Assembly: GCF_000374065.1 (NCBI RefSeq)
Contig: NZ_KB893268.1
Location: 119,073-183,072, forward strand
From: Spirosoma luteum DSM 19990
Lineage (GTDB): Bacteria; Bacteroidota; Bacteroidia; Cytophagales; Spirosomataceae
Direction: 5' to 3'
Length of the DNA: 64,000 nt
The notes beneath the pieces were generated by a model, which was not told where the DNA came from, did no database searches, and saw only the letters and a program-made list of their open reading frames with translations. Of the stretch, positions 48,116-56,344 are shown one piece after another (positions within the stretch are counted from its first letter, which is position 1; every line of letters starts with the position of its first letter). Position numbers and translations under genes: made by a program.

Positions 48116-48161
48116 TATGTTCCGTAAGTGGGCGATTTAAATCGCCCACTTACGGAACATA
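48116..48161. terminator. Perfect 46-bp palindrome downstream of the CocE gene
   Basis: Arms 48116-48138 and 48139-48161 are exact reverse complements with no spacer. It lies 32 bases after the stop. A T-run is absent, so it could be a terminator-like end or a palindromic mobile remnant. Confidence 0.6.
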
Positions 48162-48225: not shown

Positions 48226-48507
48226 ATGAAAGCGATTTGGAATGGCGAGACAATTGCCGAAAGTGACAACACTGTTGTTGTCGAAAACAACCATTATTTC
48301 CCTAAAGACTCGGTAAAGCCCGAATACCTGACTGATAGTACCACCCACACGACCTGCCCCTGGAAAGGACTGGCTTCGTATTATTCACTGTCGGTCGACG
48401 GGAAAACAAATCCCGATGCGGCCTGGTACTACCCGGAGCCCAAACAGGCGGCCAGCCAGATTAAAGACCATGTAGCCTTCTGGAAAGGCGTTCAGGTCGT
48501 GCAATGA
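48226..48507 (+). CDS. DUF427 family protein
   Basis: A 93-residue protein made of one DUF427 domain: K-A-I-W-N-G-E-T-I-A-E-S, then V-E-N-N-H-Y-F-P-K-D-S, C-P-W-K-G, Y-Y-S-L and A-W-Y-Y-P-E-P-K. The fold is a small beta barrel; function is unknown. Its stop overlaps the ABC ATPase start by 4 bases (ATGA, 48504-48507), which implies translational coupling and hints at a shared osmotic or stress role. Confidence 0.85.
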   Translation: MKAIWNGETIAESDNTVVVENNHYFPKDSVKPEYLTDSTTHTTCPWKGLASYYSLSVDGKTNPDAAWYYPEPKQAASQIKDHVAFWKGVQVVQ

Positions 48508-49238
48508 TCGAGATTACAGACCTGACCAAACGGTTTGCCGGTCAAACGGCCGTCGATGGGGTGTCCCTGCACGTTGGTCAGGGCGAAACGCTGGTGCTGC
48601 TGGGCACCAGCGGCTGCGGAAAAACGACGACCCTGAAAATGATTAACCGACTGATTGAGCCTACCAGTGGGTCAATCCGTGTCGATGGTATCGACGTTCG
48701 GCAGCAACCCGGCCCCGAGTTCCGCCGGCGTATTGGATACGTTATTCAGGACGGTGGGTTATTTCCGCATTATACGGTGGCAGAAGCCATTGCTACCGTC
48801 CCCAAACTACTTGGCTGGGAACCCGACGCTATTCTGGAGCGAACCCGCGAACTGATAGCCAAACTACAACTGCCCGAAACGATCCTGTCGCGCTACCCCG
48901 GCGAATTAAGCGGGGGGCAGCGTCAGCGCATTGGGCTGGCGCGTGCACTGGCTGCCAAACCTCCGGTGGTGCTGATGGACGAACCATTCGGGGCCCTCGA
49001 CCCCTTCACCCGTCGACACGTTCGGCGGGAGTTGTTCGGGCTGAACGAACTGCGCGAAACAACGGTGGTGCTGGTGACGCACGATGTCAGCGAAGCCCTC
49101 GAACTGGCCGACCGCATTGCCCTGATGGATAAGGGGCAGCTTATCCAGATTGGCCCGCCGGATGACCTGCTGAATCAGCCCGCTACCGATTTCGTCCGGG
49201 AGTTTCTGGACAACAAACCCCACCGGCTGCCTGACTGA
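48504..49238 (+). CDS. Osmoprotectant (betaine/choline-type) ABC transporter ATP-binding protein
   Basis: A 244-residue ATPase with Walker A G-T-S-G-C-G-K-T (34-41), signature L-S-G-G-Q (135-139), Walker B V-V-L-M-D-E (155-160) and the switch H in L-V-T-H-D. The N-terminus and the region after the Q-loop match OpuCA/OsmV-type quaternary-amine importers, but it is short and lacks the CBS pair found in some members. Its partner permease-binding protein is encoded at 50026-51591, separated by about 790 bases with an extra small gene. Overlaps DUF427. Confidence 0.88.
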   Translation: MIEITDLTKRFAGQTAVDGVSLHVGQGETLVLLGTSGCGKTTTLKMINRLIEPTSGSIRVDGIDVRQQPGPEFRRRIGYVIQDGGLFPHYTVAEAIATVPKLLGWEPDAILERTRELIAKLQLPETILSRYPGELSGGQRQRIGLARALAAKPPVVLMDEPFGALDPFTRRHVRRELFGLNELRETTVVLVTHDVSEALELADRIALMDKGQLIQIGPPDDLLNQPATDFVREFLDNKPHRLPD

Positions 49239-49602
49239 TATAGCTCAGGTCAGCCCTAGGCACAAAGATGCCGGGATAACGGTCATAATAGCCACTCGCT
49301 GGTACATGTACCAAGTCAATCCGTTAGCCACTAAGAGTACTATTTAGCTTATATAGTGTACAGGTCTCTGATAATCAGGTAGATGTACGTTTTATTTCGC
49401 GGGGTTTCACGCTTTATTCACTCGTTGACAGGCCATACTTTTACTCAAGTTTCTGCTCCAGCTAGCCCGGGTGAGTGGTAAACGCGAGAAAATTAGTAAA
49501 ACGTCAAAACCTTAACTACTTAAAACTATAACACTCAGATTCATACGGGAACGCATTGTTTTCGATCCCTCTAAAAACATAATTCAAAATGAGCCACGGA
49601 CG
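49239..49602. other. Intergenic gap inside the transporter locus
   Basis: About 360 bases with no supported gene, hairpin or promoter consensus. An open frame for the next protein extends back to about 49516 but has no ATG, GTG or TTG start there. Confidence 0.4.
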
Positions 49603-49839
49603 GTGGCTTTCCCCAGTGCTGTTCGCTCGGCACATGTTGCGCTTAACGGGTTCGATGTAAGTTATACAGATGGGGACCATCACATTTTGAGGCAGCTTGT
49701 GGATATCAGTGACCCAACCATCGTTGGTAACGCAGTGACTTACAACGTTAGCCTGTTATTGAGAGATGGTTCTGGAACCATCGATGACCGTTACCAGGGT
49801 ACGGTAGATACCTTAATTATTGCTGATACCGTTAACTGA
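49603..49839 (+). CDS. Small protein of unknown function
   Basis: A 78-residue ORF from GTG 49603 that looks coding: S-A-H-V-A-L-N-G-F-D-V-S-Y-T-D-G-D-H-H, then strands V-T-Y-N-V-S-L-L-L-R-D-G-S-G and V-D-T-L-I-I-A-D-T. A beta-sandwich is likely. The frame stays open and protein-like back to 49516 (R-E-R-I-V-F-D-P-S-K-N), with no usual start codon, so the true start may lie upstream through a sequencing change or a non-standard codon. No family recognised. A terminator follows 43 bases after the stop. Confidence 0.5.
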   Translation: MAFPSAVRSAHVALNGFDVSYTDGDHHILRQLVDISDPTIVGNAVTYNVSLLLRDGSGTIDDRYQGTVDTLIIADTVN

Positions 49840-49881
49840 TATAGTTTTCTATCGATAGGCAGGCAGTACTGAGTGGGCTAT

Positions 49882-49936
49882 CCGAAAGGGTTGACAAAAG
49901 TGGGTAACTACTTTTGTCAACCCTTTCGGGTGTTTT
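49882..49936 (+). terminator. Rho-independent terminator
   Basis: A perfect 20-bp stem (49882-49901 with 49910-49929, arm CCGAAAGGGTTGACAAAAGT) with an 8-base loop and T5 following. It separates the small gene from the permease fusion. Confidence 0.9.
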
Positions 49937-50025
49937 TATGAACCAATTGAGCTAGCTTACACGTGTGGTCGTACCAATCCCACGGAACGCCAATCCAGCA
50001 GTACGATTAGCACGCTCTCACTTTC

Positions 50026-51591
50026 ATGACCAACTTTTTTTCCTTCGTCCGCGACCACGCCGATAAATTGCTGGAGCAAACGCTGACGCACATTGGCCTG
50101 ACGTTTCTGTCGTTGCTGGTGGCCTTGCTGATTGGCGTACCACTGGGCATCCTGATTGCGCGTCGGCAACGGCTGGCGGGTAGTGTGCTGGGCGTGGCAG
50201 GGGTGTTGCAAACGGTACCCAGTGTGGCCCTGCTGGGATTTCTGATTCCGGTGCTGGGCATTGGCGTCGGCCCCGCGCTGGTGGCGTTGTTCCTGTACGC
50301 ACTGCTGCCCATCATTCGCAATACCTACGTCGGCATTACAGAAGTGAGCCCGTCGGTGAAAGAAGCGGCTCGCGGACTCGGTATGACGCCCAATCAGGTG
50401 CTGACCAGGGTGGAATTTCCACTGGCGCTACCCGTCATTTTCGCGGGGGTGCGTACCGCTACGGTCATCAATGTGGGCGTGGCTACGCTGGCTGCCTACG
50501 TGGCAGCCGGTGGACTGGGTGAGTTTATTTTTAGCGGCATTGCGTTGAGTAACGTCAACATGATGCTGGCGGGGGCCATTCCGGCGGCTTTACTGGCCGT
50601 GGGCTTCGATTTCGGATTAGCCCGGTTACAGCAACTGTCAGGGCGTAAACTACGGGTGGGAGCACTGGCTTTTGTGATACTGGTCCCCTTCATATCCGCT
50701 TTTTATCTGCTGCCCGGTCGGCAGGATAAACTTGTTGCCGGGTTTGCCCACGAGTTCTACGGCCGCGCCGATGGGTATCCGGGTCTGCAAAAAACGTACG
50801 GCCTACACCTACAGCCCCGGCTCATCGACCAGAATCTGATGTACGAAGCCATCCACCGGGAGCAGGTCGATATTATCAGCGGTTACTCTACCGACGGGCG
50901 TATCAACGCTTTTGACCTGCTGGTGCTGGACGATAATCGCCATGCGTTCCCGCCCTATGCTGCTGCCCCCGTTATCCGTAAAGCGACCCTGATTCGCTAC
51001 CCGGACCTGGAACCGACGCTTAACAAACTGGCGGGTAAGCTCACCGACTCAATCATGACAGCCCTGAATTACCAGGTCGACTATCAAAAAGTATCGTCGG
51101 AAATTGTGGCCCGAAATTTTCTGACCCAGGTCGGTTTGCACAAACCCGGCGCAGGGAAATCTTCCGAACGAACCGAAACGGTGGTGGTGGGCACGAAGGT
51201 GTTTACGGAGCAATACATTCTGGCGGAGGTTTACCGGCAACTCATCGAAGGGCAAACGAACCTGCGTGTCGTTACCAAGACGGGACTGGGAGGCACACAA
51301 ATCTGCTTCGATGCCCTGCGGACGGGTACCATCGATTTTTACCCCGAATACACCGGAACGGGCCTGCTGGTTATTCTGCAACCACCGGTCAAAACCCTAC
51401 AGCAACTGCCCATGCAAACGGACTCGGTATACCAGTTTGTACAGCAGCAGTTTCAGGCACGCTATCAGATGGACTGGCTAAAGCCGCTGGGTTTCAACAA
51501 CAGCTATTGCCTGATGATGCGCCGGGAGCAGGCCCGGCAACTGGGTATCCGTTCTATCGAGGACCTGGTGCAGTATCTGGCCCGGAAGTAA
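50026..51591 (+). CDS. Osmoprotectant ABC transporter permease fused to a substrate-binding domain
   Basis: A 521-residue fusion. Residues 1-230 are the permease of betaine/choline importers, with the E-A-A loop at 113-119 and several membrane segments. The rest is an OpuAC-type binding domain, but its halves are in swapped order. Residues 235-371 match the normal second half (R-A-D-G-Y-P-G-L-Q-K-x-Y-G-L, G-Y-S-T-D-G-R-I, A-G-K-L, L-N-Y-Q-V-D). Residues 385-521 match the normal first half (V-V-V-G-T-K-V-F-T-E-Q-Y-I-L, G-L-G-G-T-Q, Y-P-E-Y-T-G-T-G, P-L-G-F-N-N). The ATPase is at 48504-49238. Confidence 0.88.
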   Translation: MTNFFSFVRDHADKLLEQTLTHIGLTFLSLLVALLIGVPLGILIARRQRLAGSVLGVAGVLQTVPSVALLGFLIPVLGIGVGPALVALFLYALLPIIRNTYVGITEVSPSVKEAARGLGMTPNQVLTRVEFPLALPVIFAGVRTATVINVGVATLAAYVAAGGLGEFIFSGIALSNVNMMLAGAIPAALLAVGFDFGLARLQQLSGRKLRVGALAFVILVPFISAFYLLPGRQDKLVAGFAHEFYGRADGYPGLQKTYGLHLQPRLIDQNLMYEAIHREQVDIISGYSTDGRINAFDLLVLDDNRHAFPPYAAAPVIRKATLIRYPDLEPTLNKLAGKLTDSIMTALNYQVDYQKVSSEIVARNFLTQVGLHKPGAGKSSERTETVVVGTKVFTEQYILAEVYRQLIEGQTNLRVVTKTGLGGTQICFDALRTGTIDFYPEYTGTGLLVILQPPVKTLQQLPMQTDSVYQFVQQQFQARYQMDWLKPLGFNNSYCLMMRREQARQLGIRSIEDLVQYLARK

Positions 51592-51860: not shown

Positions 51861-54800
51861 ATGAAATGTTTTCTACTACTTTTTCTTATGGTTCTTGGTA
51901 GTGCTTTTTGCACTATAGCCATAGGGCAACAGGAACGGCAGGTGACAGGGAAAGTTACTACAGCCGAGGATGGAAGCCCTATACCGGGGGCATCGGTGGT
52001 AGCCAAAGGCACCACCAAAGGAACGCAAACGGATGCGGAGGGTAACTTTACCCTGACATTGCCCGACAACATCGGTACACTGGTGTTTAGCTTTGTGGGG
52101 GTAACAACTCAGGAAGTAGCCGTCGGAAACCGGTCGGTAATAAACGTAGTCCTGAGTAACGATTCCCGCTCGCTGGATGAGGTGATTGTAACCGGATACG
52201 GTTCGCAGTCGAAGCGTAACCTGACGGGTAATATTGCCAAGGTGGGGTCGCGGGAAATTGAAAATATTCCGGTTCCCAGCGTAGAGCAGGCCCTTCAGGG
52301 AAAAGTGGCCGGGGTGCAGATCACGGCCCTAAACGGTAAAGTAGGGCAGGGGTTGCAGATAAAAGTTCGCGGTTCGGCCTCGCTGACCGCTAGCAGCCAG
52401 CCGCTGTACGTGGTGGACGGAATTCCCATCACCTCGGCGGATCAGTCTTCCACAACGGCTCCCACCAACCCCATTGCCGATTTGAATCCCAACGACATCG
52501 AGTCGCTCGAGATTTTGAAGGATGCCGCATCATCGGCTATTTACGGGTCGCGGGCCTCAAACGGTGTGGTACTCATCACCACCAAAAAAGGGCGGGCCGG
52601 TAAAACGACCTTCGATGCCGGAGTGCAGGTTGGGGCCAGTACGCCTACGCACCTGCGGCAGTGGCTCAATACCCAGCAGTACGTTGAGTTGTTTCAGGAA
52701 GCGCGGGCCAATTCGGATGCGTTGGGGATTCCGGTTTATTCGGAAACCTCGCTAACGAACCGGTTCACCCGCTATGCAGCCGGTGATGCCGCTGGCTGGC
52801 AGGGTGCCAACCCTACCTACAACACGGACTGGCAGCAGGAAGCTTTCCAGAAAGCACCTTCGCAACAGTATGACCTGAGTGCCCGTGGGGGCGATGCTAA
52901 AACCCGTTTTTTTATCTCCGGGCAGTACTTCGACCAGAGTGGCATTTTAATTAAAAACCGGTTTCGCCGGTTGAGTGGCCGCGTTAATCTGGACCACAGT
53001 GCTACGGACAAGCTGACCCTGGGCGTGAATATGAACCTGTCACACTCGATAAACGACCGCGTGTCGAACGACAACGCCTTCTCGACACCGTTGCAGATTG
53101 TGGCGCTGCCACCCATAACGCCCGTCATTGACCCGCGCACGAATCAACTCAGTGGCGATTATACCCTGTATTACAACCCGCTGCTGAACCGCGATTTTGC
53201 CGCTATCCAGGCACGGGTGTATCGTATAATCGGCAATGTGTATGCCGATTATAAACTAATGCCGGGCTTGTCTTTCCGGACTGAGTTCGGAACGGACTTG
53301 CTCAGCCAGCAGGAAGAAGAATATTACGGTCGCGAAACTGCCCGTAACACCGGTGCCGCCAATGGTCTGGGTTCGAACAGCTTCCGGCAGGTGACCAACT
53401 ACACCACGAACAACTTCTTCTCTTTTGGGCGGACCATTGCCGAAAAGCACGACGTAGACGCTACCCTGGGAATGTCGTACCAGGAGTCACGGGCGAACTT
53501 TAACTCGGTAACGGGTCAGCAATTTCCGAGTGATGCCTACAAGCAACTTACGGCTGCGGCTAAGGTTACGGCGGGTACCGGAACGGAAACGAGCTATAGC
53601 TTCCTGTCTTATTTTGCCCGGGTGAATTACCGCTTCAATAACCGGTACCTGATCGGTGCATCGGGTCGTATCGACGGTTCGTCGCGCTTCGGGGTGAACA
53701 ATCGATACGGCTTTTTTCCGGCGGTTTCGGCAGGCTGGATCCTGACGGAAGAAGACTTCCTGAAAAACGCAGGGCCGTTGAGCCTGCTGAAAATCCGGGC
53801 CAGTTACGGACTGACGGGTAATGCCGAAATCGGTGATTTCAGTTCGCTGGCGTTGTATGCCGCTACGAACAATGCCGCTACATCGGCGGGGTATGCCGGG
53901 GTACCGGGACAGGCTCCTTCGCAGATTCCGAACCCGGACCTGACCTGGGAAAAAACGCTGCAAACCGACATCGGACTGGAATTTGGCTTCCTGGAAAATC
54001 GCTTTTCGGGCGAACTGGACTATTACGAGAAGAACACCAGCGGGCTGCTGCTGAACGTGAACGTGCCAGGTTCATCGGGTTTCCGGACGCAGTTGCGTAA
54101 CGTGGGTAAACTGCAAAATAAAGGGTTCGAGTTCGTTTTCAATTCCAGAAATATATCGGGCGCGTTCAACTGGACAACCTCGCTGAATATCGCCTATAAC
54201 AAAAACATCGTGACCGACCTCGGCGGCACTACCATTACGGGGAGCTTTCTGAACCGGGCGCAGGAAGGGCAGCCGCTGGGTGTGTTTGTCGGGCCGGAGT
54301 ACGCGGGTGTTGATGTGCAGAATGGTGATGCGCTCTACTACAAAAATACGACCAACACGGATGGTAGCCTCGACCGTGGCACTACCAACGACTACAACAG
54401 TGCTGCGTACGTGCCGCTGGGCAATCCCTCTCCCAAGTTCATTGGCGGCATCACTAATACGTTCAGCTTTGCGGGTGTTGATCTGAGCGTGTTATTCAAT
54501 GGTCAGTTTGGGAATTACATCTACAACGGTGGGGGTAAATTTCAGTCGGCGAACGGAGATTTCTTCGATAATCAGTCGGTCGATCAGTTGAACCGGTGGC
54601 GAAAACCGGGCGATGTTACTGACGTACCACAGGCCCGCCTGTTGGGTGGCAACGGTACGGGGGAGTCGTCCCGCTATCTGCAAAAAGGGGATTACGTTCG
54701 CCTGCGAACCTTTACGCTGGGTTATACGCTGCCTAAAGCATTGCTGAGCAGTATTCATCTGAACCGGGTTCGGGTTTACGTGACGGGCCAGAACCTGCTC

Positions 54801-54947
54801 ACCTTTACCAAGTACACCGGCTGGGACCCGGAAGTAAACTCCGACGCGTATGTGACGGGCGTAAGGGGACCAATCAACATTGGGGTTGACTTCTATTCGG
54901 CTCCGCAACCGCGTACTATCATTGGTGGACTTCAAATAGGTTTTTAA
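51861..54947 (+). CDS. SusC/RagA family TonB-dependent receptor (pair 3)
   Basis: A 1028-residue outer-membrane receptor. Here the signal peptide begins at the start codon (core LLLFLMVLGS, cleavage after A-I-G-Q), unlike the tailed receptors of pairs 1 and 2. The carboxypeptidase-like beta domain starts R-Q-V-T-G-K-V, the TonB-box-like segment is L-D-E-V-I-V-T-G-Y-G, and the plug reads I-L-K-D-A-A-S-S-A-I-Y-G-S-R-A-S-N-G. The barrel ends G-G-L-Q-I-G-F. It is a different subgroup from the tandem pairs. Its SusD follows after 20 bases. Confidence 0.92.
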   Translation: MKCFLLLFLMVLGSAFCTIAIGQQERQVTGKVTTAEDGSPIPGASVVAKGTTKGTQTDAEGNFTLTLPDNIGTLVFSFVGVTTQEVAVGNRSVINVVLSNDSRSLDEVIVTGYGSQSKRNLTGNIAKVGSREIENIPVPSVEQALQGKVAGVQITALNGKVGQGLQIKVRGSASLTASSQPLYVVDGIPITSADQSSTTAPTNPIADLNPNDIESLEILKDAASSAIYGSRASNGVVLITTKKGRAGKTTFDAGVQVGASTPTHLRQWLNTQQYVELFQEARANSDALGIPVYSETSLTNRFTRYAAGDAAGWQGANPTYNTDWQQEAFQKAPSQQYDLSARGGDAKTRFFISGQYFDQSGILIKNRFRRLSGRVNLDHSATDKLTLGVNMNLSHSINDRVSNDNAFSTPLQIVALPPITPVIDPRTNQLSGDYTLYYNPLLNRDFAAIQARVYRIIGNVYADYKLMPGLSFRTEFGTDLLSQQEEEYYGRETARNTGAANGLGSNSFRQVTNYTTNNFFSFGRTIAEKHDVDATLGMSYQESRANFNSVTGQQFPSDAYKQLTAAAKVTAGTGTETSYSFLSYFARVNYRFNNRYLIGASGRIDGSSRFGVNNRYGFFPAVSAGWILTEEDFLKNAGPLSLLKIRASYGLTGNAEIGDFSSLALYAATNNAATSAGYAGVPGQAPSQIPNPDLTWEKTLQTDIGLEFGFLENRFSGELDYYEKNTSGLLLNVNVPGSSGFRTQLRNVGKLQNKGFEFVFNSRNISGAFNWTTSLNIAYNKNIVTDLGGTTITGSFLNRAQEGQPLGVFVGPEYAGVDVQNGDALYYKNTTNTDGSLDRGTTNDYNSAAYVPLGNPSPKFIGGITNTFSFAGVDLSVLFNGQFGNYIYNGGGKFQSANGDFFDNQSVDQLNRWRKPGDVTDVPQARLLGGNGTGESSRYLQKGDYVRLRTFTLGYTLPKALLSSIHLNRVRVYVTGQNLLTFTKYTGWDPEVNSDAYVTGVRGPINIGVDFYSAPQPRTIIGGLQIGF

Positions 54948-54967
54948 TCAACGACGAAAGACAGATC

Positions 54968-56344
54968 ATGAAAAGCTATAAATCAGTTTCTACGGCGTTG
55001 GCCCTATCGGTCGGTCTCTGGCTGACCGCCTGCAACAGCCAACTCGATATTAAGCCGGTCAACTCGGTGGCTACCAGTCAGGCACTCAGCACGGCTGCCG
55101 ACTTAAACGCCCTGCTGGTGGGTGCCTACGATGGGCTGGGCGGTGTTAACTTATACGGCGGTAGTTTTATTCGCGATGCCGAACTGCTGGGAACCACACC
55201 GGCTACGGGCGATGTGCTCTGGACGGGGACATTTGTGGGTCCCCAGCAGATTTACGTTAAACGTATACTGGTAAACAACGATCAGGCTGATGCAACCTGG
55301 ACCAATGCGTACCGTACCATCAATATCTGCAATACGGTGCTGGCTAACCTAAGTCTGGCCCTGGCGGCCGATCAGCCCCGCATTGAAGGGGAAGCCAAGT
55401 TTATCCGGGGATCGCTCTATTTTGAACTGGTTCGTCTGTACGGCAAAACCTGGGGTGATGGGGATAATAACACGAATCCCGGCGTACCGATTGTGACAAC
55501 ACCAACGGTTGTACTGGATGCCAATTCCAACGTGCCACGTAGCTCAGTAGCGGCTGTGTACACGCAGGTACTTCAGGACCTGACCGATGCCGCAGCCAAA
55601 CTTCCGGTTTCCAATGGGTTCTTCGCCACAAAAGGAGCCGCCAATGCGCAGTTGTCGCGGGTGTATCTGCAAAAAGCCGACTACCCAAACGCAGCCAAAG
55701 CCGCTGATGCGGTCATTTCCAGCAAAGCGTATCAGTTGGTACCACTGGACAATGTGTTCGACACGCGGGAATCGCAGAATGGGGTTAACACTCCCGAAAC
55801 GATTTTTGCCATACAGACTACCGATCAGGATGGCATCAATGATCTGAACACGTTTTATGGTTCATCGGACGTGGGTGGGCGTGGTGATATCGAACTGACC
55901 GAGACATTCCTCAATCAGTTTTCACCGGGCGATGGCCGGGCTGATTTGGTGTATACCGATGCTGTCGATGCGATCCGAACGGTTAAGTTTATCAATCAGT
56001 ACGGCAACATTCAGGTGCTTCGGCTGGCCGAAATGTACCTGACCCGCGCCGAAGCCAACTTCCGGGCGGGCACAACCCTGGGCGATACACCCCTGAATGA
56101 CATTAACCTGGTGCGTGCCCGTGCCGGGGCTGCTCCACTGACGGCGGCTCAGCTTACCCTGGCGAATATATTGAAAGAACGTCGGCTCGAGCTGGCCTTT
56201 GAAGGAACGTACATTCACGACCTGAAACGGACTAAATCCAATGTGGGCACACTGGCGTACAACGATCCGAAGCTAATTTTTCCGATTCCACTACGGGAGA
56301 TAACCACCAACCCCACACTGACTCAGAATAGCGGTTACCTGTAA
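54968..56344 (+). CDS. RagB/SusD family nutrient-binding lipoprotein (pair 3)
   Basis: A 458-residue SusD-type lipoprotein (lipobox L-T-A-C near residue 22). It has F-I-R-G-S-L-Y-F-E-L-V-R-L-Y-G-K in the N-terminal helices and a C-terminal I-L-K-E-R-R-L-E-L-A-F-E-G motif, ending P-T-L-T-Q-N-S-G-Y. It is about 160 residues shorter than the SusDs of pairs 1 and 2. It should bind and deliver the ligand of the SusC encoded just upstream. A perfect terminator closes the operon. Confidence 0.92.
   Translation: MKSYKSVSTALALSVGLWLTACNSQLDIKPVNSVATSQALSTAADLNALLVGAYDGLGGVNLYGGSFIRDAELLGTTPATGDVLWTGTFVGPQQIYVKRILVNNDQADATWTNAYRTINICNTVLANLSLALAADQPRIEGEAKFIRGSLYFELVRLYGKTWGDGDNNTNPGVPIVTTPTVVLDANSNVPRSSVAAVYTQVLQDLTDAAAKLPVSNGFFATKGAANAQLSRVYLQKADYPNAAKAADAVISSKAYQLVPLDNVFDTRESQNGVNTPETIFAIQTTDQDGINDLNTFYGSSDVGGRGDIELTETFLNQFSPGDGRADLVYTDAVDAIRTVKFINQYGNIQVLRLAEMYLTRAEANFRAGTTLGDTPLNDINLVRARAGAAPLTAAQLTLANILKERRLELAFEGTYIHDLKRTKSNVGTLAYNDPKLIFPIPLREITTNPTLTQNSGYL

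Follow-up and report, generated by a model that had tools for sequence, protein, structure and literature searches.

A circularly permuted OpuAC-type binding domain fused to an ABC importer permease in Spirosoma luteum and other Bacteroidota

The open reading frame at 50026-51591 on the forward strand of the window (the whole stretch of 64,000 nucleotides that was analysed) encodes a protein of 521 amino acids, in which a permease is followed by a binding domain whose two chain units stand in exchanged order. The protein is very probably (probability about 0.85) the membrane component of an ABC importer of the BPD_transp_1 type that takes up a quaternary-ammonium solute, equipped with a circularly permuted binding domain of the EgtUC/AfProX type. 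The permuted fusion is real, complete and conserved; it is common in Bacteroidota and unusual for the family. The arrangement extends beyond the Spirosoma luteum genome and is an inherited rearrangement. In the following, T denotes the permease, and N and C are the units that begin and end an unpermuted binding domain, so that the window protein reads T-C-N. The fold of the permuted domain is predicted by modelling, and from the results below we infer the ligand, transport and history of the T-C-N fusion.

Domain order of the fusion protein

The sequence-only reading had described an osmoprotectant-type permease joined to an OpuAC-type domain, and Pfam profile searches bore this out. PF00528 (BPD_transp_1) matched aa 37-210 with 86.1 bits (cutoff 26.4; positions 1-183 of 184), and PF04069 matched the whole 521-aa protein with E 1.7e-57 and 195.4 bits (curated cutoff 21.2). 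The curated cutoffs of the NCBIfam equivalogs OsmF (122.3 of 400 bits), ChoW (103.7 of 363) and ProW (96.7 of 439) were not reached. The match to PF04069 consists of two pieces, profile positions 114-257 at aa 235-368 (E 3.6e-29) and positions 2-111 at aa 385-517 (E 1.7e-26). Together they cover nearly all of the 257 profile positions; the ordinary N-to-C order fails, as 114-257 precedes 2-111. In a PDB sequence search all 27 matching solved sequences were aligned in two or three separate stretches each, and in the four alignments shown residue by residue the second half of the query corresponds to the first half of the chain and the reverse. The best relatives were acetylcholine and nicotine sensors, EgtUC, Lmo1422 and Archaeoglobus fulgidus ProX. 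The earlier claim that the OpuAC halves are swapped, each being complete, is upheld by both searches for the order and by the profile coverage for completeness. Loss of half a domain was rejected, since both PF04069 halves are nearly complete. At the level of sequence these comparisons establish the permuted order of the protein and, with the residues described below, its intact site.

The arrangement was found in 126 T-C-N loci. This number includes the window, was counted after removal of three further window copies (L001, L002 and L082), and is not a number of genomes, as some genomes occur in two collections. Misassembly, a frameshift or chance as source of the order was discarded, because T-C-N is common to all these loci. 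The protein and its presumed partner are composed as follows.

48504..49238, forward strand: ABC ATPase, ProV/OpuCA-like, 244 aa, presumed partner (PF00005; TIGR01186 280.6 bits, below the cutoff of 326.6)
50026..50640, forward strand: permease domain, aa 1-205 (PF00528 match; helices in the model)
50641..50727, forward strand: last helix, aa 206-228, then a short tether, aa 229-234 (hydropathy and model helix)
50728..50925, forward strand: first section of the C unit, aa 235-300, comprising the larger share of lobe 2 (D2) and containing E243, R247 and Y287 (PDB alignment; EgtUC lobe limits, PMC9732360; residue mapping)
50926..51141, forward strand: second section of the C unit, aa 301-372, the hinge strand that contains Y311 and the formerly C-terminal portion of lobe 1 (D1) after it (Pfam; PDB alignment; EgtUC lobe limits, PMC9732360; residue mapping)
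51142..51174, forward strand: linker created by the permutation, aa 373-383, between the former C and N termini (linker lengths in the 126 T-C-N loci)
51175..51477, forward strand: first section of the N unit, aa 384-484, the formerly N-terminal portion of lobe 1, containing K391, F393, T424, Y442 and T445 (PDB alignment; EgtUC lobes, PMC9732360; residue mapping)
51478..51588, forward strand: second section of the N unit, aa 485-521, the hinge strand that contains F490, N492 and Y494, followed by lobe 2's first strand and helices (PDB alignment; EgtUC lobes, PMC9732360; residue mapping; cut survey)

The last helix would be the membrane crossing that takes the chain to the periplasm. In the full-protein model it is followed after eight residues by the first D2 strand (residue 237), which agrees with the prediction that the normal second lobe adjoins the last membrane helix. 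The chain now terminates a short way past the SIEDL motif of the N unit.

The lobes of EgtUC are given in PMC9732360 as D1 233-331 plus 445-506 and D2 341-432. With these limits the PDB alignment places the cut at about EgtUC 362-367, inside D2, and a cut at the hinge was rejected. The description of two swapped halves therefore stands for the exchanged chain units; it does not stand for the lobes, as the cut lies within lobe 2. In the window protein D1 comprises aa 313-484 with the new linker inside, and D2 comprises aa 235-300 and 494-521. The linker at the new junction has a length of 8-14 residues (median 8) in 126 of 126 T-C-N loci, and the chain ends 0-12 residues past the N unit. No duplicated residues at the chain ends were seen by eye in 15 of the 126 loci.

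Binding site and likely ligand

The site residues were mapped from EgtUC. Those forming the cage and the carboxylate contacts, Y442, N492, Y494, Y287, Y311, K391, T445 and R247, are identical in all 26 permuted rows, window included. The AfProX-type pattern, a tyrosine cage with an asparagine base and Lys, Thr and Arg for the carboxylate, is thus present at all eight positions. Furthermore, Y442 and F490 occur in 26 of 26 permuted rows and F393 in 22, the other four harboring a glutamine. The Trp-prism site of Bacillus subtilis OpuAC is apparently absent, as the cage positions mapped from EgtUC are occupied by tyrosine and asparagine. These residues suggest that the ligand is a quaternary amine with a carboxylate, likeliest a betaine; glycine betaine or a similar betaine is most likely.

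Ergothioneine, choline or another quaternary amine may be the ligand instead of a betaine osmoprotectant, which we consider possible at the lower end of the scale. The closest solved sequences include the ergothioneine-binding EgtUC as well as the acetylcholine and nicotine sensors, and the cage by itself suits any quaternary amine. However, the residues Gly244, Phe293 and Tyr337 typical of EgtU are replaced by F393, Y442 and F490. According to PMC9732360, Phe at the positions of G244 and Y337 and Tyr at that of F293 are the residues of AfProX as compared with EgtU. The position of T274 holds a glycine; as the PDB chain in the alignment carries the T274G mutation, this position allows no comparison with the wild type.

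Two known systems resemble the window protein in part. EgtUBC, the ergothioneine transporter of Streptococcus pneumoniae, also carries six helices and then the binding domain in one chain (PMC9732360), and EgtUC shares the cage architecture and about 45% identity over the C half. Unlike the window protein, EgtUBC and a Cetobacterium relative (L087) harbor the domain in the ordinary order N-C, and the EgtU-specific residues do not occur in the window protein. A. fulgidus ProX shares the four-tyrosine cage and the Phe residues at the EgtU G244 and Y337 positions (PMC9732360). Its order, in contrast, is the ordinary one, with two aligned stretches and the C half of the chain on the first half of the query.

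Partner ATPase and genomic surroundings

A similar ATPase gene is located upstream on the same strand in 114 of the 125 other T-C-N loci. Among these 114, 87 overlap the fusion frame and 22 lie at a distance of 0-64 bases (together 109), with the remaining five at 104-927 bases. Eight of the 125 loci are without an ATPase in the fetched stretch, and three were classed otherwise by the script. In the window 787 bases (49239-50025) separate the ATPase from the permease fusion, unlike in most relatives, where the genes overlap or nearly touch. This intergenic stretch is common to a close relative, L181 (81.5% over 2121 bases), and no other copy of it was found in the genome. It includes a 78-aa open reading frame (49603-49839) with no Pfam match. 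At 49882-49929, about 100 bases before the permease start, a near-perfect inverted repeat of 48 bases (-41.9 kcal/mol, z -10.7) is followed by a run of T. This terminator-like hairpin may uncouple the ATPase and permease genes.

A second inverted repeat, perfect over 46 bases (48116-48161), directly follows an S15-peptidase-like gene and is possibly a terminator. A DUF427 gene (PF04248, 48226-48507) overlaps the ATPase start by four bases with its end, and a SusC/SusD-type outer-membrane pair (51861-56344) is located immediately downstream of the fusion.

Predicted structure and relation to known permuted proteins

The AlphaFold2 model of the full protein reached a mean pLDDT of 86.7 and a pTM of 0.69, with permease residues 163-175 under 50, whereas the domain alone gave values of 93.7 and 0.90. 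The domain model was used for a Foldseek search, and the first 1000 chains were re-checked with VIA-align. The first-ranked structure was B. subtilis OpuAC, aligned end to end over 240 residues (3.1 A, Z 20.8, 15% identity). For EgtUC the best alignment covers one half (141 residues, Z 10.5, 45% identity, C half). A whole-domain match to the distant OpuAC together with a half-domain match to the close EgtUC is expected from circular permutation. Sequence alignment and structure prediction, both proposed in the earlier reading as checks, give concordant answers, namely swapped matches and a confident two-lobed model that aligns end to end with a permuted protein.

B. subtilis OpuAC (PDB 2b4l, 2b4m) is a glycine-betaine-binding domain that is itself permuted with respect to an OpuABC domain: its C half (7-157) precedes the N half (166-266), which ends in SIEDL. 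The C half before the N half and a cut after SI(E/S)DL are common to the T-C-N proteins and this OpuAC. The domain of the window protein thus resembles EgtUC and ProX in sequence, while its permutation and the position of its cut match those of B. subtilis OpuAC. Kinship with OpuAC at the sequence level was not found: 2b4l gave no match at E up to 1, and the 15% identity refers to the structural alignment. Unlike the window protein, B. subtilis OpuAC is lipid-anchored at its N terminus, is not fused to a permease and has a Trp-prism site (PMC2861598). Permutation among glycine-betaine-binding proteins has been reported by CPSARST, with the entries 2b4l, 1r9l and 1sw1 (PMC2395249).

Other systems share single traits with the window protein. 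OpuABC of Lactococcus lactis (PDB 7ahc, 3l6g) and an Enterococcus faecium relative (L086) are also permease-first fusions with an OpuAC domain, but they belong to the OpuA subfamily and have the ordinary order, so that a permuted order in L. lactis OpuABC was rejected. TpMglB-2 of Treponema pallidum is likewise a natural circular permutation of a tethered ABC binding protein, but has a type I sugar-binding fold and a different cut (PMC4990184). A permuted domain in permease fusions of Bacteroidota was not found described in the open-licence literature consulted.

In the models the two units resemble each other, each forming strand-helix-strand-helix-strand, a crossing strand and then helices. 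With units exchanged, the permuted model is collinear with unpermuted EgtUC over 186 residues (4.5 A, Z 9.1), and the domain is also collinear in this manner with amino-acid-binding proteins (Z about 10). The likeness between the unit sequences is faint (hhalign probability 3.7%, score 20.6 versus 20.5 for the best of 60 column shuffles), and sequence homology of the units was set aside as weak, as the score barely exceeds that of the best shuffle. The origin of such folds by duplication is reviewed in PMC9815098. Due to the pseudo-symmetry of the units, an exchange would keep the fold.

Distribution and membrane anchoring

An OpuAC match was obtained in 37 of 59 genomes (window and relatives), 33 from the genus of the window and four others from its order, one genome having two copies. 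In every one of these 37 the matching rows show the C unit ahead of the N unit. Two permuted fusion genes were observed in one genome (G034), and in Larkinella humicola two such genes (L100 and L122) lie about 11 kb apart on one contig. In the phylum survey 94 of 392 genomes had an OpuAC match. All 23 permease-first fusions classified at the level of the open reading frame are permuted (T-C-N), all 34 domain-first fusions are unpermuted (N-C-T), and no T-N-C occurred among those classified. The classes leave out weak survey rows without a fetched locus, and four frames of 371-454 aa (L198-L201, of which L198 and L199 are longer survey frames) had no match with the half models and were left unclassed; 12 separate binding proteins (L032-L043) matched these models weakly. 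The 34 N-C-T loci (L044-L061 and L182-L197) make up another fusion type of the phylum, which joins the same two families but is unpermuted and starts with the binding domain; one of these loci (L184) occurs in the window's own order.

A GTDB genome scan with the permuted query yielded 586 confirmed stretches. Among the best 80 of these, 77 are T-C-N and three are C-N at contig ends, and they include Spirosoma, Larkinella, Dyadobacter, Hymenobacter, Pedobacter, Mucilaginibacter, Chitinophaga, Chryseobacterium, Flavobacterium, Saprospiraceae and an uncultured Aliifodinibius. No permuted copy from outside Bacteroidota was present among these best 80 of 586, which were found with a permuted query. 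Over all collections, L011, L091, L097 and L123 are C-N alone, at contig ends. A search of 20 genomes of the class with the window protein matched its own genome alone. In the plasmid collection the junction query gave no match with at least 70% cover in one piece among the 60 rows listed (211 records); with another query five of 244 records had 80% cover, none of them within the 30 rows listed.

Outside the phylum, all eight fetched permease-first fusions of the subfamily (Fusobacteriota, Bacillota and Cyanobacteriota) are T-N-C; six of them (L173-L178) were found with the unpermuted L087 as query, and L085 and L087 with the window protein. The sequence-only reading was to be given up if all known fusions of this kind had the permuted arrangement. 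This is the case for the 23 classified permease-first fusions within the phylum, and neither for the eight fetched from beyond it nor for an OpuA-type OpuABC.

The permutation may be an adaptation to anchoring in the membrane at the N terminus, by which the tether is moved from lobe 1 to lobe 2 and docking or closing is altered. This explanation agrees with the phylum survey, in which permease-first and domain-first fusions differ completely, and with the permuted order of the N-terminally lipid-anchored B. subtilis OpuAC (PMC2861598). The tethered T. pallidum MglB-2 is permuted too, and the same idea was raised by its authors (PMC4990184). However, anchoring does not require permutation, as the eight T-N-C fusions from other phyla and OpuABC are unpermuted, and the full association within Bacteroidota could be explained by one event that was inherited. 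An adaptive role is accordingly regarded as unlikely.

Proposed transporter

For the reading favoured here, a permuted domain within a quaternary-ammonium importer, the transporter would be assembled from two fusion chains and two molecules of the upstream ATPase, by analogy with OpuA. As in the family, the ligand would close the two lobes around the four-tyrosine cage, and the closed domain would dock on its own permease. Through the permutation the old termini became connected by 8-14 linker residues, and the chain now opens after SI(S/E)DL, within lobe 2. Lobe 1, normally built from both chain ends, is now continuous, whereas lobe 2 holds both ends and has the last membrane helix as its anchor. 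As the fold has two-fold pseudo-symmetry, the boundary would be a natural place for an exchange of units.

The permuted order would also allow an arrangement in which the units of one chain, rather than closing on each other, associate with the units of the partner chain of the dimer. L. lactis OpuA is a dimer with two chains of membrane and binding domain (PMC2861598), and segment swapping has been seen in lobes cut from ribose-binding protein (PMC9815098). Such a swapped dimer is nevertheless very improbable, as a single chain yields the confident two-lobed model (pTM 0.90) and B. subtilis OpuAC, with the same order, matches the whole domain.

History of the permutation

Trees were calculated with 32 of the 126 T-C-N loci; the domain tree used reordered domains without those of the OpuA type. 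The structure alignments comprised the window with 45 of 73 full-length loci and, for the domain, the window with 27 loci. In the domain tree a single branch (93/86, 94% of 200 bootstrap trees) separates the 32 T-C-N rows from the T-N-C, N-C-T and free proteins. The permease tree sets the same 32 rows apart less strongly (81/83, 80% of bootstrap trees), and in both trees these supports are below the program's starred level. The nearest named row in the domain tree is Spirosoma arboris (84% over 273 columns). The trees conflict with respect to the nearest relatives: the permease tree joins T-C-N with the N-C-T fusions of the phylum (90/84), whereas the domain tree places the latter with T-N-C fusions of Bacillota (96/90). 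T-C-N probably arose once in the Bacteroidota lineage and was then kept, which is the favoured history.

Judged from sequence identities, B. subtilis OpuAC probably acquired its matching cut independently, and the exchange would then have taken place at least twice. The domain of the window protein shares 45% identity with unpermuted EgtUC and 15% with permuted B. subtilis OpuAC, and the latter is 44% identical to the unpermuted OpuAC of L. lactis (PMC2861598). Although both orders exist and fold (predicted or known), it is hardly conceivable that T-C-N is ancestral in the family and the ordinary order derived, as the ordinary order is found in Escherichia coli ProX, A. fulgidus ProX (a separate protein), OsmF, EgtUC, OpuCC, an OpuABC and the separate binding proteins of Archaea, Bacillota and Pseudomonadota, and as the permuted rows form one group in a domain tree that leans to nesting them inside the unpermuted family, its root, a long-branched row, being unsure.

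Implications

The observations can be extended to a bolder proposal: the exchange of units at one identical cut inside lobe 2 evolved at least twice, in the B. subtilis OpuA lineage and in the fusions of Bacteroidota, and was adaptive in N-terminally anchored transporters, where a tether on lobe 2 and a continuous lobe 1 would alter the closing and docking of the tethered domain. We regard this proposal as speculative and rather doubtful.

For annotation, linear alignments and profiles split T-C-N proteins, as Pfam and Foldseek did here. Of most interest are the similarity to the permuted B. subtilis OpuAC and, among the fusions classified in the phylum, the strict coincidence of permease-first fusion with permuted order, for which a single inherited event could account. 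As a second case of the cut known from that protein, the fusion is a tractable example of apparently convergent circular permutation at a pseudo-symmetry boundary. It also represents a natural experiment on which lobe may tether the binding domain of an ABC importer, carried out in many species and with unpermuted fusions of the same family alongside.
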